DNA of 64,000 bases, taken from assembly GCA_902528515.1 (NCBI GenBank), contig CABZTD010000005.1, forward strand, positions 1 through 64,000, given 5' to 3'. Below are positions 1 through 16,452 of the stretch, in pieces. This stretch comes from K189A clade bacterium. GTDB taxonomy: Bacteria > Pseudomonadota > Gammaproteobacteria > Pseudomonadales > Azotimanducaceae. The notes beneath the pieces are model-generated. The model saw only the letters and a program-made list of their open reading frames with translations. It was not told where the DNA came from and ran no database searches. Position numbers and translations under genes: made by a program. The stretch's first letter is position 1. Every line of letters begins with the position of its first letter.

Positions 1-887
1 CAGTAGCACCGGCCATAGCTCCTGAAATGATAAGTGACGTTTCCAAAATGACTGGCTCTGACGACTGGCCTGCTGGTGAGTTGTCCGGCTTGACTCTATT
101 GGACAAATTTCTTGACAGCTCTGTTGAGAACTACGCAACGCACCGAGATCTGCCCAGCCTATCTGGCACCAGCAAACTTTCGCCGCATCTGGCGGCAGGG
201 ACCGTGTCTGCCAATCACTGCTTGCGCGAGGCCTACAAGCGCAACCAGGAGCGACTCGTTGGCGGCAATAAGAGCATCGATACCTGGATCAGCGAGCTTA
301 TCTGGCGGGAGTTCTATAACCACATCATGGCCGAAAACCCACGTCTGGCCATGGGGCGCGCATTTAAAACCGAGACCGATGCATTGCCTTGGAACTGTAA
401 TACCGAGCAGCTTGAACTTTGGCAACGCGGCGAGACGGGCTTTCCTTTTGTCGATGCGGGTATGCGTCAACTTAACAGTACTGGCTGGATGCATAATCGT
501 CTGCGCATGGTTACCGCGCAATTTTTGGCCAAGCACCTTTTTATAGACTGGCGACTAGGCGAATCCTATTTTTTAAGCCAACTGGTTGACGGCGATTTCG
601 CAGCAAACAATGGTGGATGGCAGTGGAGTGCGTCAACAGGCACCGATGCTGTGCCATACTTTCGTATCTTTAATCCTATTCGTCAGGCCGAGCGATTTGA
701 CCCGAACGGTGCCTTTGTGCGCAGCATGATTCCTGAGCTAGCTGGTGCCAGCGCAAAACAAACTCTAGAACCTTGGAAGTTTGGCGGCGTGGGAAGCTAC
801 CCAAAACCAATGATCGACTTGAGCGCGGCGCGAGACAAAACACTCCAGGCGTGGAAGAACTCCAAAAAACTGCTAGAACGTCGTTAA
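1..887 (+). CDS. phrB: Deoxyribodipyrimidine photolyase, C-terminal part (cut by window start)
   Basis: Repairs UV-induced cyclobutane pyrimidine dimers using FAD and blue light. The reading frame is open to base 3 upstream of the first ATG at 27, so the gene starts outside the window and the N-terminal antenna-binding domain is missing. The visible ~294 residues carry the class I FAD-binding core: IWREFYNHIM, FVDAGMRQLNSTGWMHNRLR and the strongly diagnostic GDFAANNGGWQWSASTGTDA followed by PYFRIFNP, very close to E. coli PhrB as I remember it. It converges on the histidine kinase gene; the two stop codons share the palindrome TTAA at 884-887. Photolyase next to DUF2878, FAD-oxidase and DUF1295 genes is typical of light or singlet-oxygen induced clusters. 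Identity is secure; the exact start is not visible. Confidence 0.95.
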   Translation, partial: VAPAIAPEMISDVSKMTGSDDWPAGELSGLTLLDKFLDSSVENYATHRDLPSLSGTSKLSPHLAAGTVSANHCLREAYKRNQERLVGGNKSIDTWISELIWREFYNHIMAENPRLAMGRAFKTETDALPWNCNTEQLELWQRGETGFPFVDAGMRQLNSTGWMHNRLRMVTAQFLAKHLFIDWRLGESYFLSQLVDGDFAANNGGWQWSASTGTDAVPYFRIFNPIRQAERFDPNGAFVRSMIPELAGASAKQTLEPWKFGGVGSYPKPMIDLSAARDKTLQAWKNSKKLLERR

Positions 888-2215
888 CCCTCGAAAAACT
901 CGATGGTGACCTCGGTCCCCTTGCCAACATTGCTCTGCACATGAATTAACCAATCAAACTGATGGACCAATCGTCGCACAATGGACAGTCCCAATCCGTG
1001 GCCCATGCTGCTGGCCCGGCTGCGCTCACCTCGATAAAACGGCTCAAAAGCATGCTGTAATTCCTCCGGACTCATGCCGATGCCGGTATCGATTACGCTG
1101 ATTGTGTTCTTGCGAATCCGCACAATAACCGAACCTTGCTGCGTATAGTTGATCGCGTTGCGCAGCAAATTCGTCAGGATGATCTGAATCACTCGAGACG
1201 GCGCTTTGACCCATAACTGCGCCTGTTCATCTATCAACAGATCCAAACCGCGCTCTTCCGCCATGGGCACTAGCTGCTCAACATAGCCAGGTATCAATTC
1301 GTTCAGACAGCGAATTTCATGAATGCGCTCGACTTCCTCGCCCCGTGCCAGCAGCAACAAGGTTTCTATCAGGCCTTCCATGTCGTCCACTGTGCGCCGC
1401 ATGCGCTTAAATGCTTTGACATCATCTTCCGAGCGATCATCTTTACGCTGCAGTAAATCCAAGGAGCCCTTAAATACCGCTATTGGCGTTCGCAGCTCAT
1501 GAGAAGCATCACGAGTAAAGATCCTTTCACGCTCAATGAAGGTATCAAGTCGCTCAGCAAAACTATCAATGGCGTCGATCATCACATCAACTTCTAGGTT
1601 CGCTAGGGCGCGTAGATCGCCGAGATCTACTGCGGGCTGGTTATAGCTACCAAACCGAAACTCCTCTAGGTAGTCTGCCAACTTCACGATTGGTGATATA
1701 GCTCTATGTGACAGTCGATAGGTCAGGAACGAAAAACCGTAAACTAATAACAGTGCCAGAGAGAGCGGCAGAATACCGAAATAGAAAGCAAGTTGAGAGA
1801 CGTCCTCACTGAAGAACACTAGATACAGCCTGGGGCCAAGGTCCTCGCTTTGCTGACTCACGAACAGTGTGGGAGATTCATCGTTCATGGACACGCGCCC
1901 TAAGAAACCAGCCGGGTGCTCCAGTAGTTGCTCTGGCACACTGTTGTTGGGTCGCGAGGTTGATTCAGGATTACCATCGGGATTAACCAGATACCCGCGC
2001 ATGTTAGCAGTATTAGGGAGTGGATGGTTCGGGTCCTCCTCGTATAAAGACCAGTAGTGGGAGGCCTCATTCTGCAGTGCTTCAGTTATGAGGAAATCTT
2101 CAACAATTGTATTGGTGATATAGATGCCCGCGGCTACGGTCGCACTAAGCAGTACAACCTGTAGCGCTACCACACGCCCGAGCTTGGTCATCAGCCTGGT
2201 TCGACGAATCTTCAC
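884..2215 (-). CDS. Orphan membrane sensor histidine kinase
   Basis: Predicted inner-membrane two-component sensor of 443 aa. Transmembrane segment 1 spans about residues 15-37, followed by a periplasmic sensor region (about 38-142) and transmembrane segment 2 at about 143-166. A HAMP-like linker leads to the HisKA domain with phospho-acceptor H239 (DASHELRTP). The ATPase domain shows the N box (LLRNAINYT, N353), G1 box (DTGIGMS) and F/G2 boxes (FEPFYRGER, GHGLGLSIV). All catalytic boxes are intact. No response regulator lies on either side: the upstream gene on this strand is a DUF2878 membrane protein 103 bp away and the downstream neighbour is convergent phrB. The start could also be the ATG at 2191 (MTKLGRV). 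The stimulus cannot be inferred; the neighbourhood suggests light or oxidative stress. Confidence 0.9.
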   Translation of the reverse strand: MKIRRTRLMTKLGRVVALQVVLLSATVAAGIYITNTIVEDFLITEALQNEASHYWSLYEEDPNHPLPNTANMRGYLVNPDGNPESTSRPNNSVPEQLLEHPAGFLGRVSMNDESPTLFVSQQSEDLGPRLYLVFFSEDVSQLAFYFGILPLSLALLLVYGFSFLTYRLSHRAISPIVKLADYLEEFRFGSYNQPAVDLGDLRALANLEVDVMIDAIDSFAERLDTFIERERIFTRDASHELRTPIAVFKGSLDLLQRKDDRSEDDVKAFKRMRRTVDDMEGLIETLLLLARGEEVERIHEIRCLNELIPGYVEQLVPMAEERGLDLLIDEQAQLWVKAPSRVIQIILTNLLRNAINYTQQGSVIVRIRKNTISVIDTGIGMSPEELQHAFEPFYRGERSRASSMGHGLGLSIVRRLVHQFDWLIHVQSNVGKGTEVTIEFFEG

Positions 2216-2318: not shown

Positions 2319-2867
2319 TTACTCTACGGTCAGGCGGGATTTCGCTCTGCTAAAGACGAAGTAGAACAGCAGCATCCACACCAGAGCTAAGACTACTAGG
2401 CCCTGAGTGCTTGGTATCGTGACGGCGCCAAAACGCTCTCCCGTTAAATAGGACAAAGGTGCACCACCACCCACCAATAGCGCACCCAAGACCGGGCGGT
2501 TTACTAAAAATATCAGGCTGTGACGAATGCTCAATCCCACAGCAAGCCAAAGCATGATGATCCAAACGGGAGCAAGGGTGACACCGGGCGAGAGGGTCAG
2601 GGCTGCGCTGCCATAGTCGAGCACGCCAACGTGATTCCAAAACGTATCGAGACAAATACCGATTAAGGCCAGTGCTACGACGAAAGGACTGTCTTCTCGC
2701 AACTCTCCCTGCCAGAAACTCATCGCGAACATGATGGCAACCGCAGGTAAACCATAATCGATACCACCTAAGACACAGCATACCCAAGCCGCTTTTAACA
2801 TCAACGCGTTGGCTATTTTGTAACGCCCTGAAACCGCCAAAAAAGATTGTCCGGTGTCGCTAGCCAC
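2319..2867 (-). CDS. DUF2878-like integral membrane protein
   Basis: A 182 aa hydrophobic protein with about five membrane segments (for example LMLKAAWVCCVLGGI, FVVALALIGICLDTFWNHVGVL, VWIIMLWLAVGLSI). The W-x-CCVLG start region and the LDTFWNHVGVL segment match what I recall of the DUF2878 family, which is commonly found beside photolyase, FAD-oxidoreductase and cyclopropane-synthase-like genes. It begins with GTG at 2867, inside the last codons of the FAD oxidoreductase gene (8-bp overlap), so the two are probably translationally coupled. No catalytic residues are evident and the biochemical role is unknown. Assignment to DUF2878 is from memory of the family pattern. Confidence 0.75.
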   Translation of the reverse strand: MASDTGQSFLAVSGRYKIANALMLKAAWVCCVLGGIDYGLPAVAIMFAMSFWQGELREDSPFVVALALIGICLDTFWNHVGVLDYGSAALTLSPGVTLAPVWIIMLWLAVGLSIRHSLIFLVNRPVLGALLVGGGAPLSYLTGERFGAVTIPSTQGLVVLALVWMLLFYFVFSRAKSRLTVE

Positions 2868-4209
2868 CTTGGCTTTGATCAGCGTTGCCTATATCTGCGG
2901 CGAAGCCAGACCCCCTTTGTTCCGCGCTGGGGCTCAGAGTCGGCAGCTTCGCAAGCAGTTGCTCTGCAGCATCCACACCACTGCGAAACCCGTCTTCATG
3001 GCCACCCATTCCCCAATATGCACCGCAGTAAAATGTGCGGTCCAAACCACTAACCTGCGCTCGTCGCTGTTGGGCTTCATAAGCATCTGCGTCTAACACC
3101 GGATGCCGATATTTGCGCTCTGTCCAAATTCTTTTAGGCGTATCTTGCGGATTTAGCGTAATAAAGAACTGCGGACCTCGAATGCCCTGAACACGGTTCA
3201 TCCAGTATGTCGTCTCCGAACGACCTGTCTCCGAATCGATTCGCGCATTCCAGCTGGACCAATTACGTGGATCTCTCGGCATGTAGGTCGCGTCGCCATG
3301 CAAGACCACTTGGTTATCCATGTACTTGATCGCGCCGAGCACACTGGATTCAGCGAGGGTCGGCTCCACTAAGGCTTCCAACGCCTGATCGCTGTGACAA
3401 GCCATAACTACCGCATCGAACTCCAGCGACTCATGTTCGGTTTCAAGCACGACGCTGCTGTCAGTACGTAGCACGCGCAGAATCTTAGAGTTACAGCGAA
3501 TGTCGCCAGGAAATTGTTCCGCAAATACCTCGAGATACTGTGAAGCTCCGCCGCTAACCACTTGCCACAAGGACTGCGTCGGATGCTGGAATATCTTTTG
3601 GTTCTGCACGATCGAAGCAAGATGCTGCAACGGGGTGTCAAGAGCACTCGATTGGCTCTGGGCCCATAGCGCGGCACATAGCGGTGCCATATGACGCTGA
3701 ACGAAACGCTCACTGTAGTTGTTTTGCCGGAAATACTCACCGGCATTGAGCAGGCCCTGATGCTCTGCTGCCATGGGGGCTTCCAGGTGAAAACGCTGCC
3801 AATCCCACAACAAGCGCCAATGCTTCAAAGAAAAAAGTAATTCACTGGAAGAGAAAAATGTTCGCCAACCGATAGTGCTGTATTCGAGTGCCTCTTGGTC
3901 TGCGCGAACGCTAAACGTCATATCCGTCCGTTGGGTTGGCACACCAATTTGCGCTAGCCACTGACAAAAATTGGCATGTCCTGAAGGGTGAAAGGCGACA
4001 AAGCCTGTATCGATGGTATAAACCTTATCCTCGACCCAAACCGAGTGTGAATCTGTGTGCCCGCCCAAACGACGCTGAGCTTCGAAAAGCGTCACTTCGA
4101 CGGATTCTGCCAAGCGGTGCGCTGCCGCAACACCGGAGATACCGCCTCCAACAACAGCGACCCTGCGCGCCGCTGAGGCACCTTGGGCTGGGATCTTTGC
4201 ATTATTCAT
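2860..4209 (-). CDS. FAD-dependent amine-oxidase-like oxidoreductase
   Basis: A 449 aa cytosolic flavoprotein. The N-terminus carries the dinucleotide-binding motif VAVVGGGISGVAAAHRL, then the acidic strand end VTLFEAQRRLGGHTDS, as in amine oxidase/phytoene desaturase-like FAD proteins. The C-terminus has the second FAD contact, YCGAYWGMGGHEDGFRSGV. Members of this family sit in light-induced clusters with photolyase, DUF1365, cyclopropane-fatty-acyl-phospholipid synthase and DUF2878 proteins; a role in fatty-acyl modification of membrane lipids is the usual proposal. Here it is first in a minus-strand unit with the DUF2878 gene (8-bp overlap) and divergent from the NTF2-like/DUF1295 unit. 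The usual DUF1365 and Cfa partners are not in the window, so they are elsewhere or lost. Confidence 0.85.
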   Translation of the reverse strand: MNNAKIPAQGASAARRVAVVGGGISGVAAAHRLAESVEVTLFEAQRRLGGHTDSHSVWVEDKVYTIDTGFVAFHPSGHANFCQWLAQIGVPTQRTDMTFSVRADQEALEYSTIGWRTFFSSSELLFSLKHWRLLWDWQRFHLEAPMAAEHQGLLNAGEYFRQNNYSERFVQRHMAPLCAALWAQSQSSALDTPLQHLASIVQNQKIFQHPTQSLWQVVSGGASQYLEVFAEQFPGDIRCNSKILRVLRTDSSVVLETEHESLEFDAVVMACHSDQALEALVEPTLAESSVLGAIKYMDNQVVLHGDATYMPRDPRNWSSWNARIDSETGRSETTYWMNRVQGIRGPQFFITLNPQDTPKRIWTERKYRHPVLDADAYEAQQRRAQVSGLDRTFYCGAYWGMGGHEDGFRSGVDAAEQLLAKLPTLSPSAEQRGSGFAADIGNADQSQGG

Positions 4210-4462: not shown

Positions 4463-5050
4463 ATGAAAAATTTGCCCCTAATATTGTTTGTTAGTGCTTT
4501 AGCCTTAGGCTGCGCGAGCAGCACGCCCGAGCAAAATATAGGCGCCTCCTACCCAGATGCTTACCAACGGGCTCTAGTGCAATTTCGGGGAACACCGCAT
4601 GTTCAAAAAACTGACATCAATGACTTCATAAATTTTCTGTCAAATCTTGGCGCTGACGATACAGCTGACCGCGCTCGAGAGCTGTACGCTCAAGATCTCT
4701 ACTTCAGCGATGCACTGATGCTGACAGACAGCAAAGATGCAGTCGTCGCTCACTTTCGTGGATTGGTCGACGGAGGGGCCAGGGTTGAGGTGGACATGCT
4801 AGATGTGCTACTCCAGGAGTCAGACGTCTATCTCGTCTGGAAGATGACCGCGGAATTTCAGCCGATCCGAAAACCCGTCACCAGTACAACGATTGGCGTC
4901 ACTCATGCACGCTTCAATACCGCTGGCAAGGTAGTCCTCCACCAGGACTTTTGGGATACGGGCTTAGGCTTCTATCAAAATGTGCCCGGCCTTGGCACCG
5001 TCATCAAGGCCATCAATCAACGATTTACGGCCGAGGAAACCCAGAGGTGA
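4463..5050 (+). CDS. NTF2/SnoaL-like lipoprotein
   Basis: A 195 aa protein with a lipoprotein signal (KNLPLILFVSALALGCASS; lipobox ALGC), so probably anchored in the cell envelope. The mature part has a nuclear transport factor 2 (NTF2)/SnoaL-like layout: a helical start, ARELYAQDLYFSDALM, then the cone-fold strands VDMLDVLLQESDVYLVWKM and HQDFWDTGLGFYQNVPGLG. NTF2-like proteins ending in a HxDFWD-type motif recur in photolyase/DUF1295 clusters. No known substrate. It is first in a plus-strand unit and overlaps the next gene by 4 bp (GTGA), indicating translational coupling. Confidence 0.75.
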   Translation: MKNLPLILFVSALALGCASSTPEQNIGASYPDAYQRALVQFRGTPHVQKTDINDFINFLSNLGADDTADRARELYAQDLYFSDALMLTDSKDAVVAHFRGLVDGGARVEVDMLDVLLQESDVYLVWKMTAEFQPIRKPVTSTTIGVTHARFNTAGKVVLHQDFWDTGLGFYQNVPGLGTVIKAINQRFTAEETQR

Positions 5051-6513
5051 TCTTGATCGCAGTGCTTCCCGCACTGCTGACGTTGCTCGGTGGTATGATC
5101 GCCTGGCGCCTATCCTACCGCTACCAGTGTGCGAGCATCGCCGACATATTTTGGCCACTGCACCACATTGTCAGTATGACGACCATGCTGTTTGTTCTTC
5201 CGAAGAGCATTAACAAGCCAGAGCTTATTACTATTATACTAGTACTGCTTTGGGGCTTTCGATTAGCCACGCATCTGAGCATTCGTCAGGCAGGAGCGCC
5301 AGAGGATGCCCGATATCGGGCCATTCGCTCAAGCATAGGAGCAGACTTTGGCCGCAAAAGCCTATATCTAATATTTGCTCCTCAAGCGCTTATGGCTTGG
5401 TTCATTTCGTTGATGCTAATCCCAGCCCTTACCAAGGCTGAATGGAATGCCTGGGCCTATTCGGGTCTGCTATTAACAGGCGCCGGCTTGATTTGGGAAA
5501 TTACCGCTGACCTGCAACTAAGTGCATTTTTAAAGCAGAGAGCAAGCCCGGCGACCACTGACTTTGGGGTACTCGACCAAGGGCTTTGGTCTTTTAGCCG
5601 ACACCCGAATTACTTTGGTGAATGGGTTTTTTGGCTGGGTCATGCGATCACTGCGATAGCTCTTGATAACCACTTTTTGGTAGTAGCTCTGCTGGCCATG
5701 GGCCTGTTAACGTTTCTACTATTGCGATTCACTGGGGTCTCTAGGTCAGAACCTACGATTATCGCAAATCGGCCCGATTACGCTGCCTATCAATCAAAAG
5801 TGCCAGCTTTTTTTCCGAATCCAAAGAAACTTTGGTCGGCCCTGGCAAGCAACGTGCTCGAAAGTCGAAAGGCAAAGTATCAGATAGGCTGGTGGCTGCT
5901 GCCTTGCACCCTCCCCTTTACGGTTTTGCCCGATATTGCGAACGCCCAGTCAACCCCGGTCCAGAATTGGTTTTTCGACGTCCGCATAGACGAAAAAGAC
6001 GTTGGCTACCATGATTTCAGACTAAGGAAGGATTCAAACGGCTACACGATGGATGCGAGGGTTGAATTTCGCTACAAGGTACTGGGCGTGACCGTTTTCT
6101 ATTACGAACACGCGGTGACCGAGCGTTACGATAACAAGCTATGTCTGCAGAATATATCGAGCCAAACTAAAACCAATGGAAAGCTGCAGTCGCTTAGCGG
6201 CAGTGCCGGGCCTAACGGCTTTGTGCTGGCGACCCAGCCGACAACGACCATAATGATTGACTGCATTTTGACCTTCGCCTATTGGACCCCGAAACTTCTT
6301 GAACAATCACAGATTCTAAATGGGCAGACCGGCGACATCGTGGACATCGACGTCGCGCCAATGCCCTCTACAAAAATCGATGCCACTCAGCGTTATGCGC
6401 TTAAAGGTGACAAGATCGATATGCACCTAGCCTATGATGAATCCGGCAACTGGCTGACACTGGATTCAATTCTAGAAAATGGTCGTTCTTTGACCTATCG
6501 ACTGCGCGATTAG
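5047..6513 (+). CDS. DUF1295 membrane enzyme fused to a DUF6134-like domain
   Basis: About 488 aa from a GTG start at 5047, which overlaps the previous stop codon; the longer ORF from 4951 runs inside the previous gene and is unlikely. Residues ~1-260 form a polytopic DUF1295 (steroid 5-alpha-reductase/ICMT-like) domain with the hallmark FSRHPNYFGEWVFWLG. Residues ~276-300 (YQIGWWLLPCTLPFTVLPD, then IANAQS) look like a signal peptide with a cleavage-site-like ANAQ. The remainder (NWFFDVRIDEKDVGYHDFRL ... LSGSAGPNG ... FAYWTPKLLEQSQILNGQTG) resembles DUF6134 secreted proteins. These two are normally separate, adjacent genes as far as I recall, so this is a likely gene fusion; a sequencing error removing a stop is the alternative. 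Function probably concerns membrane lipid modification; unproven. Confidence 0.75.
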   Translation: MILIAVLPALLTLLGGMIAWRLSYRYQCASIADIFWPLHHIVSMTTMLFVLPKSINKPELITIILVLLWGFRLATHLSIRQAGAPEDARYRAIRSSIGADFGRKSLYLIFAPQALMAWFISLMLIPALTKAEWNAWAYSGLLLTGAGLIWEITADLQLSAFLKQRASPATTDFGVLDQGLWSFSRHPNYFGEWVFWLGHAITAIALDNHFLVVALLAMGLLTFLLLRFTGVSRSEPTIIANRPDYAAYQSKVPAFFPNPKKLWSALASNVLESRKAKYQIGWWLLPCTLPFTVLPDIANAQSTPVQNWFFDVRIDEKDVGYHDFRLRKDSNGYTMDARVEFRYKVLGVTVFYYEHAVTERYDNKLCLQNISSQTKTNGKLQSLSGSAGPNGFVLATQPTTTIMIDCILTFAYWTPKLLEQSQILNGQTGDIVDIDVAPMPSTKIDATQRYALKGDKIDMHLAYDESGNWLTLDSILENGRSLTYRLRD

Positions 6514-6543
6514 CCCGCCTTTTTCAGGCGATCGCACCGTTCG

Positions 6544-6562
6544 ACCCCCTGTCGGGGGTTTT
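6544..6562 (+). terminator. Rho-independent terminator after the DUF1295-DUF6134 gene
   Basis: Perfect hairpin ACCCCC-TGTC-GGGGGT followed by TTTT, 30 bp after the stop codon. The tetraloop and G/C stem fit an intrinsic terminator closing the 4463-6513 unit before the TonB receptor. Confidence 0.75.
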
Positions 6563-6638: not shown

Positions 6639-9467
6639 ATGAACCACAGAAGATGGGCTTTACTGTCCTCTGCCTGGCTGCTTACTTGCTTTGCATTACA
6701 AGCCAGCGCAGAAGACGAGCGAAGACAAATTGAAGAGGTAATTGTCACAGCGGAGAAAGTAGAAGCGACTGTGTCTGATACGGCGCTCTCTATTACCGCC
6801 ATTGGCAGCGAAATGCTCGAAGACATGGGCATCCAGTCAGCCAACGAATTTATTAACTATATTCCCGCCACTACGCGGGACACTTTCGACATTCGCATTC
6901 GGGGTGTTGGGAGAAACTTTCGCGCATTGGGCGGCGATCCAGGTGTGGCTACTTACTACAACGGGGTTTATTCAGAAGACGCGCTAATTGCCCTGACGGA
7001 AAACGCACTGTTCGATATCGAGAGGATTGAAGTGTTGCGTGGCCCACAAGGGACACTCTACGGCAGAAATGCCATCGGCGGCGCGATTAACTATGTCCTG
7101 AAAAAACCGACTTCAGAACCCTATGCGATGGTTCGAGGGCAATTCGGTTCAAAAGATGCGCGAGAATACTACGGCGTCTTATCGGGCCCGATAACAGATG
7201 AACTGGGGATACGTGTCGTTGCGTCTAAAAGACAGTCAGATCCTCGACTCAAAAGTGTGGTAGGCGGCATCGGCGCGGACAGCACCGACGACAGCAACAC
7301 CGCAATATCTTTTAACTGGAAGCCGATTGAAAGACTTAATATTGATGCGCGTTTCAACGATCGCAATTCAGCTCGTGATATCGGAGCGAACGTGTTGATA
7401 AATGAAGGTTGGGGGTCATTTAGAGGATCTAGGATGACCGATGTATACGCTCAAGGTCTCAGATTAGTAGATGCGAGTACGCCTGGAGCGGAACTTTTTA
7501 CTAACCCCTATACTGGCGAAACAGCATATGGAGCAGTAAACCGACCTGGGGTGGATCTGGCTCCCTCAGCTCCCAACCCAGCCTTCGGTTCTATTGATTA
7601 CCTCAATAGTCCGGACGACCTGGATAGCGTTAAGCATGAATTGTTGAACAATGGTTATCACTTTGAAGGTTTTGATCAAAGAGGTACTCAGATAACAGTC
7701 AACTGGGATGCTTCTGACTCTCTCGCAGTCAAGTACATCTACGGTCACAGTGATTTTTCTTACGACTGGGATTTCGACTACGACAATTCAAACAGCAACA
7801 TATTAGACCAAGGTAGTGACGGATTTGAGGCCATATACAGCTATTCCCACGAACTTCAATTTCTTTGGGACGTTAATGAAAATCTCTTTGTGACCGCTGG
7901 GGCCTACTATTTCAAAAGCTCCAGAAATCAGGAATTGACCCTTCATAGCAGAGCGTCTCAGGGGAGAATTCAGAACTCTGCCAATTACGGGCAGTTAGCC
8001 GGATTCTTTCCTGCCTTGGGCATAATTACCGAAGATCCTGCCGTCGGAGGCCCATTAACTATGCAAAGCGCTCCCTTAAATCGCCTTCTTTTGGGCACTT
8101 GGCAGGGAGACACCTTCGGCGACAACAATAGCTACAAGCAAGATAACACTAATAAAACGGAGCAAACCGCGTTTTTCGCGCAGGGCGAGTACCAGCTGAA
8201 CGACGAATGGGCCATTACATTGGGCGTTCGATGGGCAGAAGATGAGAAAGCTGTAAGCGAGATTCGTGGTGGTCTGTACGAAGCGAATGAAGTCTGGTGG
8301 GGCCTCTTCGATGCGCCATTTTTCCAGATTGCACCCGGCGTTACGGCCGGCCAATTTTTGCGAAGCCCAGCTCTAACAGGAATTCCGGCTCTTGGGATTC
8401 CAGCGGCCGCATTCGCGGGATTCACAGACCTTGCGTGGACAAATTTCTACATGGGCAATGGTCTCCCAACTGGCAACCCCTTACAGCCGCTGGCGCCTGT
8501 GTGTCCTTTAGACGCTATCGAGTGCGCCAACCCACTACAACTTGCTGGCATTCCACTTGCTTTTGCCACATACGCGGAAGACGACAATTCGTGGGACGAC
8601 GTGAATTTTCGAGTCAATTTGGATTGGACACCCTCAGAGGAAACGCTCGTTTATGGTTACGTGACCACAGGTTACAGGTCAGGTGGCTATGGACTCGGCA
8701 TTTTGGATGCTAGAGCGGGAGGTCCCGGTGGCACGCCAATCAGTGTTCTTTCATACGATGAGGAAACCGTGACGGCTTATGAGCTTGGCTACAAAGGCAC
8801 TCTGTTCGATGGAACTTTGCAACTTTTCACCGCGATTTATACTTATCAATATGAGAATTATCAGGATCAAATCGACCAGTACGACCCAATACAGGGACAA
8901 TCAGTCGATATACCCGTGAATACTGGCGATACCTCAAATTCGGGAATTGAAATAGAGGGAACCTGGCTTGCCACTGATGCGCTGACGATAAACGGCAATT
9001 ACAGCTATACAAAAACCGAATATAAGGACGATGTATTTTTATTGGAAGACGAAAATGCACTGGCTCCTGAGCCTCTTTTTGGTGGCACCGCCTTCAATGT
9101 GAATGGCAATGCGCTCAAAGGCATTCCGGAGCATAAATTCACTGCTTGGGCCAACTATGAGTGGATCCTACCTGACGATTCGACGATAGCTCTGACAGGC
9201 GCCTATTCGTATATTGGCGAATACAACACCGACTCCATTGAAAGAGATTACGACAAAGTACCGGAGCGCCACCGAGTAGACCTAAGCCTAAATTGGCGGT
9301 CCGCTGACAGCAAATCCCGAGTGCGCCTATTCGTCGATAATCTAACAGACGAGACCAACTTCAGGCTGCTCTCTCAGGCAAATCACGAGAGCAACTTTCG
9401 CCTCACAGGTTCACTCCTTGGAGAGAGAACCGTTGGCGTTGATATAATTAGGGAGTTTGGAGGCTAA
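6639..9467 (+). CDS. TonB-dependent outer-membrane receptor 1
   Basis: About 942 aa from the ATG at 6639, which is preceded by GGGGAG at good spacing; the TTG at 6627 in the ORF track is less likely. A signal peptide (SSAWLLTCFALQASAE) is followed by a TonB box (IEEVIVTAEK) and a plug domain with FINYIPATTRD, FDIRIRGVGR and the VLRGPQGTLYGRNAIGGAIN motif. The long C-terminal barrel alternates aromatic strands and ends at REFGG. This is the Fe-siderophore/complex-substrate TBDR type that is expanded in sphingomonads and OM60-like gammaproteobacteria. It would import a large or poorly diffusing substrate across the outer membrane. It converges on a CoA-transferase gene and lies beside a catabolic cluster, so the ligand may be that pathway's substrate; no ligand can be read from sequence. 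Confidence 0.93.
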   Translation: MNHRRWALLSSAWLLTCFALQASAEDERRQIEEVIVTAEKVEATVSDTALSITAIGSEMLEDMGIQSANEFINYIPATTRDTFDIRIRGVGRNFRALGGDPGVATYYNGVYSEDALIALTENALFDIERIEVLRGPQGTLYGRNAIGGAINYVLKKPTSEPYAMVRGQFGSKDAREYYGVLSGPITDELGIRVVASKRQSDPRLKSVVGGIGADSTDDSNTAISFNWKPIERLNIDARFNDRNSARDIGANVLINEGWGSFRGSRMTDVYAQGLRLVDASTPGAELFTNPYTGETAYGAVNRPGVDLAPSAPNPAFGSIDYLNSPDDLDSVKHELLNNGYHFEGFDQRGTQITVNWDASDSLAVKYIYGHSDFSYDWDFDYDNSNSNILDQGSDGFEAIYSYSHELQFLWDVNENLFVTAGAYYFKSSRNQELTLHSRASQGRIQNSANYGQLAGFFPALGIITEDPAVGGPLTMQSAPLNRLLLGTWQGDTFGDNNSYKQDNTNKTEQTAFFAQGEYQLNDEWAITLGVRWAEDEKAVSEIRGGLYEANEVWWGLFDAPFFQIAPGVTAGQFLRSPALTGIPALGIPAAAFAGFTDLAWTNFYMGNGLPTGNPLQPLAPVCPLDAIECANPLQLAGIPLAFATYAEDDNSWDDVNFRVNLDWTPSEETLVYGYVTTGYRSGGYGLGILDARAGGPGGTPISVLSYDEETVTAYELGYKGTLFDGTLQLFTAIYTYQYENYQDQIDQYDPIQGQSVDIPVNTGDTSNSGIEIEGTWLATDALTINGNYSYTKTEYKDDVFLLEDENALAPEPLFGGTAFNVNGNALKGIPEHKFTAWANYEWILPDDSTIALTGAYSYIGEYNTDSIERDYDKVPERHRVDLSLNWRSADSKSRVRLFVDNLTDETNFRLLSQANHESNFRLTGSLLGERTVGVDIIREFGG

Positions 9468-9541: not shown

Positions 9542-10738
9542 TCAAGACTTGGGCATGAAGTCGTCCTGTTGCAAAATTCCATTTGACTTAAGGAGCTCAA
9601 CACGGGTCCGGTCGAAACTGAGCCAGTCCTCAAGAACCTCGAAGTTGTGTTCACCTCGATAAGGAGCCGGGCCGCGAACACCACTGCTGGCTGAAGAAAA
9701 TCGATAGGGTGATTGCGTCAAAGGGCGACTGCCACCCGTTCTGTCGTCCATTTCTACAATAGCGCCACGCGCTATCAAGGTTGGCTGGTTAATTATGTCT
9801 TCGGGCTCACGCACCTTGCCCCAGGCAAGATTCATGGTCTGCATGTCCCTTTCAACCTTTTCCCAGCTATCCAGTCGCAACATGTATTCCGACACAATCG
9901 AACGACGAATTGCAATTTTCTCCGGCAATGGTGTCGCTTTGTTGGTTGGATCATCTATTCCTATAAGGGTGGTCAGTTGAACCCACAAGAAGCGAAAGTC
10001 CGCGGATAATAAAATAGATCCTGCCCCTGTTCGCCAAACGTCATTTGGCAGAGGGGCAGTTTCTTCTGCGTTTTCCATCGCATATTGAACTTGATCGTCT
10101 GTGGCGAATGTCGCATCGATCATGGCGATATCGATGTGCTGACCCTTGCCGGTGCGCTGACGCATAATGACGGCGGACAGAACACCGACTAAACCATGCA
10201 GGCTTGCATTGGTATCTGCCACGGAAAGCGGCAAATCTGTCACGGCAATGTCACCGCGATTTGCCTGACGCTGCATCAGGCCCGCTTCGGCATGAATGAT
10301 GGGTGCATACGCGGGACGGTGGGATTCAGGCCCACCCTGACCAAAGCCGGAGATCGACAGCATAATCAATGCCGGGTTGACCGCCTTCAACGTTTCGTAG
10401 CCGAGACCAAGGCGCGACATCACGTCCGGACGGTAATTTTCGATCACGATATCGGCCCCGGCAACCAGATCCTTGACCAGGTCTACCGCACCGGGTGCAC
10501 GAAGATCCATACAGATATTACGCTTCCCCGCATTTTGCTGATGGTAGTAACCGGGCAGCCCCGCGATGTCGCGGCCCCAAAGCCGGGTTACGTCGCCATC
10601 CGGCGGCTCGATCTTAACCACATCTGCCCCTAGGTCACTGAGCATACGTCCGGCAAAGGGACCCGCTAACACTCTAGAAAAATCCAGCACCCTCAGGCCG
10701 TTCAGCGGGTAATTTTCATCGGTTTTTTGAATCGTCAC
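9542..10738 (-). CDS. CaiB/BaiF family (class III) CoA-transferase
   Basis: Moves CoA between acyl donors and acids in the cytosol. Family signatures are plain: GLRVLDFSRVLAGPFAGRML at the N-terminus, SDLGADVVKIEPPDGD, ENYRPDVMSRLGLGYE, and a ADTNASLHG segment that should hold the catalytic aspartate. Length (~398 aa) is normal. The ORF track begins at a TTG (10753); a GTG at 10738 has GAGGA seven bases upstream and gives MTIQKTDENYPLNGL, so I prefer it. It is divergent from the PhyH-like dioxygenase with only ~67 bp between, suggesting shared regulation. In context with an acyl-CoA synthetase and an esterase it probably activates a carboxylic acid intermediate. Confidence 0.9.
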   Translation of the reverse strand: MTIQKTDENYPLNGLRVLDFSRVLAGPFAGRMLSDLGADVVKIEPPDGDVTRLWGRDIAGLPGYYHQQNAGKRNICMDLRAPGAVDLVKDLVAGADIVIENYRPDVMSRLGLGYETLKAVNPALIMLSISGFGQGGPESHRPAYAPIIHAEAGLMQRQANRGDIAVTDLPLSVADTNASLHGLVGVLSAVIMRQRTGKGQHIDIAMIDATFATDDQVQYAMENAEETAPLPNDVWRTGAGSILLSADFRFLWVQLTTLIGIDDPTNKATPLPEKIAIRRSIVSEYMLRLDSWEKVERDMQTMNLAWGKVREPEDIINQPTLIARGAIVEMDDRTGGSRPLTQSPYRFSSASSGVRGPAPYRGEHNFEVLEDWLSFDRTRVELLKSNGILQQDDFMPKS

Positions 10739-10805
10739 CGCCCCATTCCTCAAACGCTCCCAAGCGCTTATGCTCTCATGACTTTAGTCGTATTTGGCAA
10801 AGCAA

Positions 10806-11858
10806 ATGACGAAAACCACGACAAAACATGACGCCCGACTGTCAGCAGAACCACGCCTAGTTGCTGACGAGGCGACGCTTACGGGTTCGGTGCACGATCT
10901 CGGCTGGGTCCAATCCAGCGCCGATGCATTTGCCAAAAAGCGGGAATATCTTGAGGCGAATAACGGAATTCGTGGTCTCGAACGGTTGCAACCTACAGAC
11001 ATCGAGGACGCTGTACGCATCTTTTACCGAGACGGTTTTGTGGTTATCGAAAATACGCTGAACGATGAGCAGTTAACCCTACTAAAGGAAGCTTCGGAAA
11101 GAGTCATCCGCGAGATCTTGGCAAAAGATAAAAACCGTCAGGGCAACCGCGGCTCCCACCGGTACTCCTTTGGCTCAGCAAGCCTCACAGGGCAACTACT
11201 TCACGAACCTGCTTGGTCTATGTTGGTGGATCTACCCACGGTGACGCCCGTCATCACAGCGATCTTTAACAGCCGAGACTACATCCTGCGCGGTGCCGGT
11301 GGCGACTTTTGCCTACCGGGTGCGAGCACCTATCAGCCACTGCACTCGGACATGAATGACCGCATTGAGTATCAAGGTAAAACCTTCGGCTCGTTTCACG
11401 ATCCGAGGGGCAGACTCAACTACCGCGACCTACCCTGCCCCTACGTTTGTTGTAACTTCTTAACCAGCGACTTTACCGCGATCAATGGGCCTACCCGGCA
11501 GATTCCTGGCACCCAGCACAGTCAGCAGCGCATTCCAAAGCTGGCCCAGGAACCCGAATGGATGAAACTCAGCACGGTCTGCCCGGCCCCGGCTGGCAGC
11601 GTACTGATTCGAGACACCCGGGCTTGGCACGGCGGCACCCCAAATCTATCGGACAAAGTGCGCGCAATTCCCAACGCGGAATATCACGCGCCTTGGTACC
11701 GCGAACCCATGGGCCGATCCATGCCGCGAGAGATTTACGAATCTCTCAGCGAGCATGGCCAGTATATTGCACGCTACGTGGTCGCCGAGGCCGGTGAGGA
11801 GCTGGTCACCGGCTTTCGTGAAGACTTGGGTACGACGCCGCCGGATTTACGAGACTAG
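10806..11858 (+). CDS. Phytanoyl-CoA dioxygenase (PhyH) family oxygenase
   Basis: Fe(II)/2-oxoglutarate-dependent hydroxylase family, 350 aa from the ATG at 10806 (the track start is a TTG at 10794; no strong Shine-Dalgarno for either). The iron triad can be read as HSD in PLHSDMNDRIEY and the distal His in RAWHGGTPNLSDKVRAIPN, whose Arg would bind 2-oxoglutarate. The DGFVVIENTLNDEQL segment is typical of the PhyH N-terminal helix. The substrate is unknown; hydroxylation of a CoA-activated or free acid is plausible given the divergent CoA-transferase. The converging gene is the RraA-like protein after a ~400-bp gap. Confidence 0.88.
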   Translation: MTKTTTKHDARLSAEPRLVADEATLTGSVHDLGWVQSSADAFAKKREYLEANNGIRGLERLQPTDIEDAVRIFYRDGFVVIENTLNDEQLTLLKEASERVIREILAKDKNRQGNRGSHRYSFGSASLTGQLLHEPAWSMLVDLPTVTPVITAIFNSRDYILRGAGGDFCLPGASTYQPLHSDMNDRIEYQGKTFGSFHDPRGRLNYRDLPCPYVCCNFLTSDFTAINGPTRQIPGTQHSQQRIPKLAQEPEWMKLSTVCPAPAGSVLIRDTRAWHGGTPNLSDKVRAIPNAEYHAPWYREPMGRSMPREIYESLSEHGQYIARYVVAEAGEELVTGFREDLGTTPPDLRD

Positions 11859-12257
11859 GTTTAATCTCAAGGTATTGATACCTACTTGTTTCTTCTCGTG
11901 ATTGAGAGTGATGATAGTGGTGTCTGAGTGCAGGACCCTGCGAGACCGATCGACGGAAGAGCCGGTACCCGATGAGATCTGAGATTGAACTACTCTGTTC
12001 AGCCTAGCGATAACCGAATGCCATGGACAAACAAATCTCACTGCGCACCGAACAAGCGAGCCGAGTTCGCCTTTTTCTGTACCAGCTCGGGATAGTCCTG
12101 TTAGTCTTTCTCATCATGATGCCTGTGGCGCTATATTTATCTGGCGCATCGCCAATCGCTTTAACCGTCTGCACCGTCTGGACATTGCTTGGCTCAGCAA
12201 AAAACTGCTCGGTTCGACAGATCCAGGTCGACCGTATGAGACAACCTATCACACAAA
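11859..12257. other. ~400-bp gap between phyH-like and RraA-like genes
   Basis: No well-supported gene. It holds the start and main hydrophobic part of a small plus-strand ORF (12023) described separately. No strong terminator hairpin with a T-run was seen between the two convergent flanking genes. Confidence 0.5.
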
Positions 12258-12337
12258 TTAGTGAATCTCCGCCGCCTCACCTTGAGCCGCGCGCAGTTTT
12301 TCAATGTCGAAGTCTGGCTGCTGCGCGGCTGAAATAA
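12023..12337 (+). CDS. Small membrane-protein ORF of uncertain reality
   Basis: 104 codons with one clear hydrophobic stretch (LFLYQLGIVLLVFLIMMPVALYLSG) and a second weaker one (IALTVCTVWTLLGSA). The last ~80 bp overlap the 3' end of the RraA-like gene on the other strand and lose hydrophobic character (ESPPPHLEPRAVFQCR), as expected of antisense coding sequence. There is no good ribosome-binding site. It could be a small membrane protein, the remnant of a longer gene, or chance. No family is recognised. Confidence 0.25.
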   Translation: MDKQISLRTEQASRVRLFLYQLGIVLLVFLIMMPVALYLSGASPIALTVCTVWTLLGSAKNCSVRQIQVDRMRQPITQISESPPPHLEPRAVFQCRSLAAARLK

Positions 12338-12962
12338 TCACGGCTTCACGCCGCGCCAGCTGCTGCGCGGCTTCTTGCACCTGACCAATCACCTCAGCTG
12401 GGATTACCACTGCACCGTGCTGGTCAGCGTGGATAATATCTCCGTCGGTCACCCGCATACCTGCTACATCTACCGGTCGTGCGTAGTCAACCACATGCAC
12501 GAATGCGTGAGACGGCAGCACACTCGCTGCCAGCATCTGAAAACCCGGCGCAATATCGGGCAAATCGCGCACGCCGCCGTCAGTGATCACTCCCTGGCAA
12601 CCCAGACCATTGTGAATATTGGAGTTCACCTCACCCCACAAGCAGCCGTAGCCGTTATTACCATCAAGGTCCTGAATCACCGCGATGCTGGGTTTGGGCC
12701 CACGGTCGATGTACTCATAATATCCGTCGGAGACTGCTCGCGCTTCTTTGCTCGACAAGTCGGAAGGATGTGCCGCGCGTATTGTCGCGGTTCGGGCATA
12801 GCCGATCATGGGTGGTAGCTCTGGGCGGGTACAAACCAGCTGAGAGGTCGTAAAGCCGTAACCTCGACGCTGAGGAATAAGCAGCTCCAACGCGTTACAT
12901 ACGGTTGGGGTATCGAAGCGCTGCAGTGTTTTGATCAATGCTTCATCGAGTCCTGTGGGCAT
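12258..12962 (-). CDS. RraA-family / HMG-aldolase-like protein
   Basis: A 234 aa RraA-fold protein. The signature GCQGVITDGGVRDLPDI contains the RDxxD Mg-binding motif that distinguishes 4-hydroxy-4-methyl-2-oxoglutarate/4-carboxy-4-hydroxy-2-oxoadipate aldolases; the preceding LWGEVNSN and following ADQHGAVVIPAEV also match. In catabolic clusters these enzymes cleave or decarboxylate 2-oxo acids, whereas E. coli RraA modulates RNase E. The gene lies between an oxygenase and an acyl-CoA synthetase and is divergent from the latter (143 bp), which favours a metabolic role. Actual substrate unknown. Confidence 0.85.
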   Translation of the reverse strand: MPTGLDEALIKTLQRFDTPTVCNALELLIPQRRGYGFTTSQLVCTRPELPPMIGYARTATIRAAHPSDLSSKEARAVSDGYYEYIDRGPKPSIAVIQDLDGNNGYGCLWGEVNSNIHNGLGCQGVITDGGVRDLPDIAPGFQMLAASVLPSHAFVHVVDYARPVDVAGMRVTDGDIIHADQHGAVVIPAEVIGQVQEAAQQLARREAVIISAAQQPDFDIEKLRAAQGEAAEIH

Positions 12963-13105
12963 GATTCTTTCCTATTCAGTCAAAGCAATCGCAGACGAGG
13001 CCACCACTCGCCAAATACTGTCAAGTTGGGTTATGTCTGCGCTTTCGCTACAGTTTAACTAGTTATCATTGACATCGCCTAGGTCAAAGGGAGAGGAGTT
13101 TTACC

Positions 13106-14818
13106 GTGTCAGATCATCAACCAAGTCGCGCCGAGGTATTGGCAACACTGACCGCGCCAGGCCAGCCTTTTGAGCTCGTCGCGAGCACCGTGTATGGACG
13201 TAAATGCCAATTTTTCAAACGCGCTCCGCAAACGCTACGCAACTTATTCGCCGACAACATTAGCGATCTTGACTTTTTAGTCTATGAGGACGAGCGCCTA
13301 ACGTTTGCGGAGGCTTACCTGAAGTCAGCACAAATTGCTCAGCTGTTGGTCCGCCAGTACGCGATCACCAAGGGAGATCGTGTTGCGATTTCTATGCGCA
13401 ACTACCCGGAATGGGTGTTGTCCTTTATGGCTATCACCTCCATTGGTGGTATCGCTGTCGCTATGAATTCGCTCTGGCGACCTGATGAGATGGCCTACGG
13501 CCTGATCGACAGCGGTGCCAAGGTGTTGATAGCCGACGACGAGCGGCTGTCGCGTTTTGCGCAAATTGAAAATACCCCAGAGACCCGTGTCGACGTGCAA
13601 ACAATTGCTATCCGCACCAGTGCCTTCCCGAGCAGTCCCGAGCTGAGCTCATTACTGGATAACCTGGCGGGTCAGTGTGGAGTGCTCGATATGCCCCAGC
13701 AGCGCCCGGAGGCAGAGGACGACGCCACAATTTTGTATACGTCTGGCTCGACGGGCCATCCCAAGGGGGTGGTCTCCTGCCATAAGAATATCTTAGCCGC
13801 GCTCATGAGCTGGGAGCTGGATCAAGCGTCCGCGATTGCCATGTTACCTGAAGCGCCTCCGCCGCCGACTCACCAGGTAGCCACACTGCTCGCGGTGCCG
13901 CTGTTTCATGCCACGGGTTCTCATGCGGTGTATCTCGCGAGCTATCGCAGTCAGCGCAAAATTGTTTCCATGTATAAATGGGATGCAGCCCTAGCTGCAC
14001 ATCTGATCGAAGTCGAAAAAATCAGTTCCTTTATCGCCCCGGCAGCGATGACCGGCGACTTGGTACACGAGGCAGCGCGGACTCAGCGCGACCTGAGCAC
14101 CCTCGCCTCGGTGGGCGGTGGAGGCGCACCCCGTGCACCGGAGCAAGTCCGAAACATTGAAAAGACGTTCGACAACGCCCTGCCCGGCACCGGCTGGGGT
14201 ATGACGGAGACCAATGCCATTGGCACAGGCATTGGTGGAATGGATTATCTCGAACACCCGGAGAGTTCAGGCCGCTGCAGCGCTGTGATGGAGCTAAAAG
14301 TCATAGACGATCAAGGCAACGCCCTCGCTTCGGGTGAGCGCGGCGAACTGCTCATTCGGGGAGCCGCAGTGTTCCGCGGCTACTGGAATCGTCCAGATGC
14401 TAATGAAGAAACCTTTTTGCCCGGCGGCTGGATGCGCACCGGCGATGTGGCCTTTTTAGACGATGAGGGTTATCTCTACATCGTCGACCGAATCAAAGAC
14501 CTGGTCATTCGAGGCGGCGAGAACATTGGCTGCGGCGAGGTAGAAGCTGCCCTCCTGGAACACCCCCTAGTGCAAGAGGCATCGGTTTATGCCGTACCCG
14601 ACCAGCGACTGGGCGAAGAAGTAGGCACCACACTCTTTGTCTCTTCGAGCCTCACCGAGAGTGAGCTTACGGACTTTCTGCAGGAGCGGCTCGCCAAGTT
14701 CAAAATTCCACGTTACATCCATCAACAACGAGCACCCCTGCCACGCACTGCTTCGGGGAAAATTCTCAAACGCGATTTACGCGAAGAGGCCTGCCAGCGA
14801 CTTGGTCTAGCCCAGTGA
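13106..14818 (+). CDS. AMP-dependent acyl-CoA synthetase
   Basis: Adenylates a carboxylic acid and transfers it to CoA. 570 aa from a GTG start with an excellent GGGAGAGGAG Shine-Dalgarno. Motifs appear in order: P-loop-like ILYTSGSTGHPKGVV, GWGMTET, WMRTGDVAFLDDEGY, DRIKDLVIRGGENI, and the C-terminal catalytic lysine region RTASGKILKRDLR. The family covers medium/long-chain fatty acid and aryl acid ligases; the exact substrate is not predictable. Its stop overlaps the start of the esterase gene (GTGA), so the two are translationally coupled: the esterase could release the acid this enzyme activates. Confidence 0.93.
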   Translation: MSDHQPSRAEVLATLTAPGQPFELVASTVYGRKCQFFKRAPQTLRNLFADNISDLDFLVYEDERLTFAEAYLKSAQIAQLLVRQYAITKGDRVAISMRNYPEWVLSFMAITSIGGIAVAMNSLWRPDEMAYGLIDSGAKVLIADDERLSRFAQIENTPETRVDVQTIAIRTSAFPSSPELSSLLDNLAGQCGVLDMPQQRPEAEDDATILYTSGSTGHPKGVVSCHKNILAALMSWELDQASAIAMLPEAPPPPTHQVATLLAVPLFHATGSHAVYLASYRSQRKIVSMYKWDAALAAHLIEVEKISSFIAPAAMTGDLVHEAARTQRDLSTLASVGGGGAPRAPEQVRNIEKTFDNALPGTGWGMTETNAIGTGIGGMDYLEHPESSGRCSAVMELKVIDDQGNALASGERGELLIRGAAVFRGYWNRPDANEETFLPGGWMRTGDVAFLDDEGYLYIVDRIKDLVIRGGENIGCGEVEAALLEHPLVQEASVYAVPDQRLGEEVGTTLFVSSSLTESELTDFLQERLAKFKIPRYIHQQRAPLPRTASGKILKRDLREEACQRLGLAQ

Positions 14819-16452
14819 GAGCCGTCGTGTTGCTACTGGCCTGCTGGCTAATCGTCGCCTGCGGCCAAGAAGCACCTCGAAATGCAAGGATGACCATGAG
14901 CCAAGCGCTGATAAAGGAAACCCAGTCCGGTCGTTTGCAGGGCGCATGGGCGAGCGAGCAGGAAGGCATACAGGTCTTTCGCGGCGTGCCATTCGCACAA
15001 CCACCTTTAGGCGATCTGCGATGGCGTCCGCCGTTGCCCGCAGAGCCCTGGGAGGACGTCAAAAGCGCAGAACGCTTTGGCCCTGCCTGCTACCAAGCCT
15101 TTAGCCAAGACGCCTTTGTATGGAGTCGAGGACAATTTGAGCGCAGCGAAGACTGCCTTTACCTGAACATTTGGACTAAGGCTGAGACCTCGGCTCCTCT
15201 ACCAGTGATGGTGTGGTTTCATGGTGGCGCGCATACCGGCGGCTTCGCTCATGTTGAGCTTTTCGACGGAACAGCCTTGGCACGAAAAGACGTTCTGCTG
15301 GTTACCGCTAACTACCGCCTGGGGCCCTGGGGATTTTTAGCACATCCTGCGCTGAGCGCTGAATCCGACCAAGGCAGTAGCGGCAACTATGGGCTGCTGG
15401 ACAAAATAGCCGCGTTGCAGTGGGTACATGACAATATTGAGGCTTTTGGTGGTAATGCCTCTAATGTCACTATTTTTGGCCAATCCGCAGGGTCGATGAG
15501 CGTCTGCGCGCTGATGACATCACCCTTGGCAGAGGGGCTTTTTCACAAAGCCATTGGCCAGTCCGCGGCCTGTTTTTACCGCTTTACCCGGGACCTTAGC
15601 GGTGAGGCGCGGGGCACCAAACTTGCTAATTTCTTGTTACCGGATCAAGCACAGATCAGCGCGGAGGATCTGCGTCTTATTGACTCGGACCAGCTCTTGA
15701 AAGCAGCCACGGATAGCGGCTGGGATCACGGTGGCGGGCTAATCGCTGTCGACGGCTGGGTCTTGCCTGAAGCACCGCAGACCACGTTTGCCAAGGGCAA
15801 ACAAGCCAAGATCCCTGTGCTGCTCGGCTCTCTGGCCAACGAAGGCATTGAGCTTTTGCCGCTAAATGAGGGTCTAACCGAGCCCAAGTTCGACGCTTAC
15901 CTTGACAAACGCTTTGACGGGATGGCAGCACTGATCAAACAAGCCTACGAAACGGAAAGACTGATAAGCCCTGGGCTTGCCCAGCGCAGTATTGAAACAG
16001 ATCTTTTGATGGCGCTGCCCATGCGACAATGGGCTGCCTATCAAGCGGCCATTGGCATGCCGAGTTACTTGTATTTTATGGACTATGTGCCTCCGGCCTA
16101 CCAAATCTACCGAGCCGATAAGCCAAATCTCGACCTGCCCTGCGGACCACGAAGCGCAGGGGCCTATCATTCTGGTGATCTTGCCTTTGTCTTTAACAAT
16201 GTCGGCAAAACCGGTGACTTCTGGAACGAGGACGACCTAACGATGGCAAATCGAATCAGCGATTATTGGACCGGTTTTGCCAAAACAGGCGATCCGAATG
16301 GGCGCAACCAACCGACATGGGAGACATATGCGGCGTCGACCCATAACACCATGATGCTGAATTTAACCGGCGAACAAACAGAAGGCGCACTACGCAGGAA
16401 AGTTGATTTGCTCGCCGCCGCCATGGCCGCTCTGAACAAAAATAAGAATTAA
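14815..16452 (+). CDS. Type-B carboxylesterase lipoprotein
   Basis: 545 aa from a GTG start overlapping the upstream stop. The N-terminus (VLLLACWLIVACGQ) has a lipobox, so the enzyme is likely anchored to the outer membrane or periplasmic face. Family motifs: FRGVPFAQPPLGDLRW, SEDCLYLNIW, oxyanion HGGAHTGGF, nucleophile serine in TIFGQSAGSMSV, probable acid in LANEGIELL and catalytic His in YHSGDLAFVFN. It hydrolyses carboxylic esters. Together with the coupled acyl-CoA synthetase and the TonB receptor it suggests uptake and hydrolysis of an ester-bearing compound followed by CoA activation. Confidence 0.92.
   Translation: MRAVVLLLACWLIVACGQEAPRNARMTMSQALIKETQSGRLQGAWASEQEGIQVFRGVPFAQPPLGDLRWRPPLPAEPWEDVKSAERFGPACYQAFSQDAFVWSRGQFERSEDCLYLNIWTKAETSAPLPVMVWFHGGAHTGGFAHVELFDGTALARKDVLLVTANYRLGPWGFLAHPALSAESDQGSSGNYGLLDKIAALQWVHDNIEAFGGNASNVTIFGQSAGSMSVCALMTSPLAEGLFHKAIGQSAACFYRFTRDLSGEARGTKLANFLLPDQAQISAEDLRLIDSDQLLKAATDSGWDHGGGLIAVDGWVLPEAPQTTFAKGKQAKIPVLLGSLANEGIELLPLNEGLTEPKFDAYLDKRFDGMAALIKQAYETERLISPGLAQRSIETDLLMALPMRQWAAYQAAIGMPSYLYFMDYVPPAYQIYRADKPNLDLPCGPRSAGAYHSGDLAFVFNNVGKTGDFWNEDDLTMANRISDYWTGFAKTGDPNGRNQPTWETYAASTHNTMMLNLTGEQTEGALRRKVDLLAAAMAALNKNKN

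Follow-up and report, generated by a model that had tools for sequence, protein, structure and literature searches.

A DUF1295-DUF6134 gene fusion in a gammaproteobacterial genus, with a predicted signal peptide between the two domains

In Bradyrhizobium, cytochromes b and c1 are made from the FbcH precursor, a single chain with an internal signal peptide that is cut by signal peptidase; this cleavage has been demonstrated. Bacterial precursors that release a membrane enzyme together with a periplasmic protein are rarely described. Lipid-modifying systems provide a second point of comparison. Genes like the neighbours of the fusion described below respond to light or oxidative stress in related systems, among them the furan fatty acid pathway (UfaM, UfaD and UfaO; PMC7380195) and a nine-gene cluster of Stenotrophomonas, controlled by ChrR, in which two CFA synthases occur with a desaturase, an FAD enzyme and a lipocalin (PMC11832516). 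Neither DUF1295 nor DUF6134 is named in the passages on these two systems. In Chlamydomonas, DUF1295, DUF1365 and CFA genes are induced by singlet oxygen (PMC4067076). The Brucella protein EipB (structure 6NTR) is a periplasmic beta-spiral protein required for envelope integrity, and its shape has been likened to those of LolA and LolB (PMC10787603). Our literature search found no paper naming DUF6134 and no detailed treatment of bacterial DUF1295.

We studied a window of 64,000 nucleotides (the whole stretch of DNA analysed) from a K189A-clade gammaproteobacterium, in which DUF1295 and DUF6134 are encoded by one gene. Its features are as follows.

5047..6513, + strand: fused DUF1295-linker-DUF6134 gene, 488 amino acids, uninterrupted frame from GTG to TAG
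5104..5802, + strand: DUF1295 domain (PF06966, from Pfam), a multi-pass membrane enzyme in the fold group that includes SRD5A, sterol reductases and ICMT
5599..5622, + strand: RHPNYFGE motif, residues 185-192 (from alignment)
5818..5967, + strand: linker, residues 258-307, 50 amino acids long in the nearest seven species
5890..5937, + strand: hydrophobic core WWLLPCTLPFTVLPDI, residues 282-297, preceded by a K/R-rich stretch; internal signal sequence by pattern
5938..5946, + strand: ANA, predicted signal peptidase I site by pattern, cut after 5946 (residue 300)
5974..6507, + strand: DUF6134 domain (PF19630), predicted EipB-like beta barrel or spiral (from Pfam, model and Foldseek)
6142..6144, + strand: Cys366 of DUF6134, unchanged in all 26 DUF6134 sequences aligned; may form a disulfide with Cys406
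6262..6264, + strand: Cys406 of DUF6134, invariant in the same 26 sequences

A sequence-only reading of this DNA had described a complete DUF1295 domain with RHPNYFGE, joined in frame to DUF6134 at 5047-6513 through a buried signal-peptide-like segment ending in ANAQS. The coordinates were exact and the frame is open throughout. Both halves gave full-length Pfam matches far above their curated cut-offs: DUF1295 at residues 20-252 (model positions 2-235 of 235, 162.6 bits against a cut-off of 20.4, E 1.4e-47) and DUF6134 at residues 310-487 (model positions 1-184 of 184, 115.3 bits against 27.9, E 4.6e-33). The second match contradicts the possibility, raised in that reading, that the second half is not DUF6134. 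The hydrophobic stretch and ANAQS lie in the linker, at residues 282-302.

Of 40 genomes of the genus, 22 carried the fusion, intact in 21 and cut by a contig end in one (G002), and the fused orthologs spanned 81-38% identity. The DUF6134 cut-off was passed by 21 of 274 genomes surveyed in the class and 32 of 392 surveyed in the order; all the fused copies among these DUF6134-positive genomes were within the genus of the window, and none was found outside it. To judge from its named relatives, the group that bears the fusion appears to consist of uncultured marine gammaproteobacteria.

Many other gammaproteobacteria carry DUF1295 and DUF6134 as adjacent genes on the same strand, the DUF6134 protein having its own signal peptide. 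In these split pairs, DUF6134 often follows DUF1295 directly, sometimes with an ATGA overlap. For example, one pair with such an overlap (L080) has a DUF6134 protein that starts with MKLLALLFCLGLFSTGAQA, a plain signal peptide, and a GAGGA ribosome-binding motif upstream. In a longer operon (L075), the order is CMAS, DUF2878, DUF1295, DUF6134, Lipocalin_2, fatty-acid desaturase, FAD oxidoreductase, DUF1365, CMAS and DUF3429. The proposal that two neighbouring genes were joined, and that their products are functionally linked, was supported by these split adjacent forms. A simple loss of a stop and start, as also proposed, did not hold: the fusion is an old event common to at least 22 species, and a change of frame was also required. 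The reading frames of the two genes were out of register in every split pair checked, so that loss of the stop by substitution would have been insufficient on that arrangement and an insertion or deletion would have been needed too. In the DUF6134 tree, the 21 fused rows and the unfused copy of one genome (G014) formed one starred branch (99/93), in which the G014 row is long and its placement weakly supported. The G014 gene occupies the same genomic place, is unfused and has kept its signal peptide. On the simplest reading of the tree, the fusion would have arisen once, and G014 would later have lost its DUF1295 part; one gain and one loss suffice.

For the linker, we judged a signal peptide by pattern: a basic stretch, a hydrophobic core and a permissible site. 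The linker in the window has this layout, with a basic stretch, then the core, then ANA followed by QS. Twelve of the 21 linkers could be aligned by distance to DUF6134. All 12 had Ala at position -8 from the domain and A, V or S at -10, and position -9 varied (N, K, R, Y, S, H, F, I, L or M). As a sequence pattern, this combination of Ala at -8, a small residue at -10 and a free -9 follows the -3/-1 rule for signal peptidase I. Across the seven nearest species, the Ala at -8 was the sole invariant column among the last 22 of the linker. An all-Ala column occurred in 0 of 200,000 shuffles, a count that is not a probability because the species are related. The remaining nine linkers had permissible sites at other distances, some of them weaker and others farther from the domain; the best sites in L018 (SYG) and L039 (SQA) were not textbook. 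The hydrophobic core in the window is modest (best 14-residue KD mean, 1.39). The substrate pattern of signal peptidase I, consisting of a basic n-region, a hydrophobic core and small residues at -3 and -1, was present in the window and in most orthologs. In one ortholog (G017; L020, 727-2265), a run of SDHP repeats lies just past the predicted cut site, which suggests that this end tolerates insertions.

We conclude that the segment still directs export and that it is probably still cleaved. We are highly confident that DUF6134 is exported, and cleavage by signal peptidase between the two halves seems likely from the linker pattern. The predicted freed DUF6134 fragment would start near Gln301, with the N-terminus QSTPVQNWFFDVR. 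The sequence-only reading had placed DUF6134 on the periplasmic side of the same membrane enzyme. The periplasmic location is supported by the signal peptides of the split relatives and by the invariant cysteines. The attachment to the enzyme is not secure, as conservation of the -3/-1 pattern points to a separation of the halves by signal peptidase.

The fusion might instead stay uncut, with the old signal peptide serving as a transmembrane anchor that keeps DUF6134 tethered to the DUF1295 enzyme on its periplasmic side. Internal hydrophobic segments can be uncleaved anchors, and the fusion has been kept in at least 22 species, where its benefit would be obvious if the domains cooperate. If the segment served only as an anchor, however, there would be no reason to expect that Ala at -1 is invariant and the residue at -3 small while -2 is free. 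The hydrophobic core is also short, and pLDDT in the model was below 50 over residues 276-302. We consider an uncut protein unlikely and prefer separation of the halves.

The properties of the DUF6134 half fit a periplasmic protein. Cys366 and Cys406 were invariant in all 26 aligned sequences, fused and split, which fits a periplasmic disulfide; the residues invariant across the family (the two cysteines, YW and an NxxxG region) were all present. The structure model of the domain, built with the 26 fused and split sequences, had a mean pLDDT of 94. Among solved structures, Foldseek ranked the Brucella DUF1849 structure 6NTR first (probability 1.00, 11% identity, TM-score by query as high as 0.70), followed by weak matches to LolA. 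The fused protein had no Pfam match to DUF1849, its second half matching PF19630 only, so the likeness is one of fold alone.

In the DUF1295 half, RHPNYF was invariant in 24 of 24 aligned sequences. The best secondary Pfam match was Steroid_dh (PF02544), with 21.4 bits, just under the cut-off of 22.6, and ICMT (PF04140) gave 20.2 bits, under its cut-off of 24; as both cut-offs were missed, we assigned the domain to neither family. It may nevertheless work like a steroid 5-alpha-reductase, to judge from these matches, without being classed as one. Could it be a methyltransferase of the ICMT/PEMT kind and not a reductase? The best profile match to a solved structure was the prokaryotic ICMT 4a2n (E 1.2e-5), and there were weak Pfam matches to ICMT and PEMT. 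Sterol and steroid reductases were nearly equal in the profile search (4quv, E 1.4e-5), however, Steroid_dh ranked first among the secondary Pfam matches, and in the fold search PbSRD5A (7c83, probability 1.00) exceeded ICMT in TM-score (0.57, by target, against 0.39). We consider a methyltransferase unlikely. By sequence the domain is intermediate between reductases and methyltransferases, and by fold it is closer to PbSRD5A. We rejected naming a substrate from solved structures, to which the matches were weak and divided between methyltransferases and reductases. The genome of the window also carries another DUF1295 gene, which is only distantly related (31% identity; L002 1501-2166, contig C6).

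Five genes precede the fusion in the window.

4463..5050, + strand: SnoaL/NTF2-like gene, directly upstream of the fusion
2860..4209, - strand: gene of the FAD-dependent amine-oxidase/desaturase-like kind, a divergent neighbour that most fused loci retain
2319..2867, - strand: DUF2878 membrane protein, conserved neighbour
884..2215, - strand: sensor histidine kinase, conserved neighbour
27..887, + strand: DNA photolyase, C-terminal part

The GTG start of the fused gene overlaps the TGA of the SnoaL-like gene as GTGA, so the two are probably translationally coupled. Across the 40 genomes of the genus, the SnoaL-like gene was confined to G014 and 21 of the 22 genomes with the fusion. The FAD oxidoreductase, DUF2878, histidine kinase and photolyase genes recurred in most fused loci with enough flanking sequence. 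The photolyase is truncated at its 5' end because the contig begins at base 1 of the window; relatives have a full photolyase of about 470 amino acids adjoining the same histidine kinase. A response regulator is absent beside the histidine kinase of the window and present in a split operon (L074) and in an Acinetobacter plasmid cluster (L125, 1-11919). In this cluster a version of the operon occurs on a plasmid, with no DUF6134 annotated: it carries photolyase, lipocalin, desaturase, FAD oxidoreductase, DUF1365, CFA synthase and DUF1295 genes, and also methyltransferase, kinase/regulator, chalcone-isomerase-like and NTF2-like genes.

Downstream, a TonB-dependent receptor gene (6639-9467) is conserved beside several fused genes and at the G014 locus. 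Between it and the fused gene, a GC-rich hairpin followed by T's was seen by eye at about 6543-6562, which the scan did not report. Farther on (9542-16452) are CoA-transferase III, PhyH dioxygenase, RraA-like, AMP-ligase and carboxylesterase genes; genes that match this set in size, order and strand only follow the locus in L034, L036, L038 and L042.

The furan fatty acid pathway was considered as the function and rejected. DUF1365 (the UfaO family) was found in none of the 22 fused genomes and in 7 of the 18 others of the genus, and Lipocalin_2 in none of the 22 fused genomes. The fused clade therefore does not appear to run the known pathway, and its retention of DUF1295 and DUF6134 without DUF1365 and lipocalin suggests that the pair is separable from furan fatty acid synthesis. 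One UfaM-like CMAS is encoded in the genome of the window (C15); at E 1e-30, only 3 of the 22 fused genomes had a close relative of this enzyme. By association, the fused pair might alter another membrane lipid by oxidation and reduction under photo-oxidative stress, a tentative suggestion to which we give somewhat less than even weight.

Translation of DUF6134 might also, or mainly, be initiated within the linker, giving two overlapping products. An ATG lies just ahead of the hydrophobic core in three loci (L034, L035 and L036), but no conserved in-frame ATG, GTG or TTG was found in the linkers, no Shine-Dalgarno-like motif (AGGA, GGAG or GAGG) was found upstream of the start candidates there, and the linker of L016 has zero candidates; the split relative, by contrast, has GAGGA ahead of its DUF6134 start. 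We rejected an internal start as very improbable.

That the fusion is genuine is nearly certain. Eleven of the fused loci are on named public contigs from separate projects, including OM182, a K189A-clade single cell and unclassified Pseudomonadales. Stop codons were sought in the linkers of the fused orthologs and none was found in any. Linker dN/dS in five species pairs was 0.44, 0.19, 0.30, 0.24 and 0.59, all below 1 and mostly above the values for the domains. The sequence-only reading had named a stop or frameshift near 5850-5880 as a refuting result, which the independent assemblies contradict. A joining of two genes by assembly or sequencing error, conceivable in a draft genome of 89 contigs and 75% completeness, or a stop lost in one genome, is ruled out for practical purposes: independent MAGs and a single-cell genome also carry the fusion, at identities down to 38%, and the substitutions in the linker are codon-like. 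A mobile or viral origin was also rejected: the fused protein had no match to viral contigs, and among the matches listed, those on plasmids were limited to DUF1295, covered about half of the query or less and had at most about 35% identity.

Our preferred reading, which we consider fairly likely, is that the gene is translated as one chain, from which signal peptidase I probably releases two parts, a membrane enzyme like SRD5A or ICMT and an EipB-like barrel in the periplasm. One gene would then encode two proteins that other gammaproteobacteria make from adjacent genes. The DUF1295 membrane enzyme would be made first, its C-terminus lying in the cytoplasm, to judge from the SRD5A/ICMT fold group. 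What was once the signal peptide of DUF6134 would act as an internal export signal, Sec would move DUF6134 into the periplasm, and signal peptidase I would most likely cut after ANA (residue 300). Two products would result in equal amounts: the membrane enzyme, and a free beta barrel in the periplasm that is stabilised by a disulfide. DUF1295 may be a lipid reductase of the NADPH type, and DUF6134 may bind or shuttle its lipid. Together with the neighbouring FAD desaturase-like enzyme, DUF2878 and the SnoaL protein, they could form a membrane-lipid system for photo-oxidative stress.

Whether the locus encodes a natural bacterial polyprotein, in which signal peptidase separates a membrane enzyme that modifies lipids from a periplasmic partner that binds them at a conserved site within the chain, is in our judgement evenly balanced. 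If it does, the ratio and the place of export of both products would be fixed by the polyprotein. Two families that carry DUF names are tied together by direct fusion besides conserved adjacency, and DUF6134 gains a likely compartment and fold.

The proposed processing resembles that of FbcH, in which a membrane and a periplasmic protein also come from a single chain. The FbcH proteins are unrelated to DUF1295 and DUF6134, and cleavage is demonstrated in FbcH but predicted here. EipB shares its fold, as predicted, with DUF6134 but differs from it in sequence (11% identity), Pfam family and gene neighbourhood. PbSRD5A/SRD5A2 and ICMT have in common with DUF1295 the membrane fold and a PNYxGE-like or RHPxY-like region, whereas DUF1295 falls below the Pfam cut-offs of steroid 5-alpha-reductases and ICMT. 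In the Ufa system and the Stenotrophomonas cluster, the genes are of the same kinds as the CMAS, FAD oxidoreductase and DUF1365 genes that adjoin the split relatives; the Ufa system has DUF1365, which the fused clade lacks. Closest are the split gammaproteobacterial operons with CMAS, lipocalin, desaturase, FAD and DUF1365 genes, which have the same two domains as the fusion, in the same order and on the same strand, with an exported DUF6134. These operons use two genes with separate starts, whereas the fused clade has one protein, and the remainder of the operon is reduced at the fused locus to the FAD enzyme, DUF2878 and the SnoaL-like gene.
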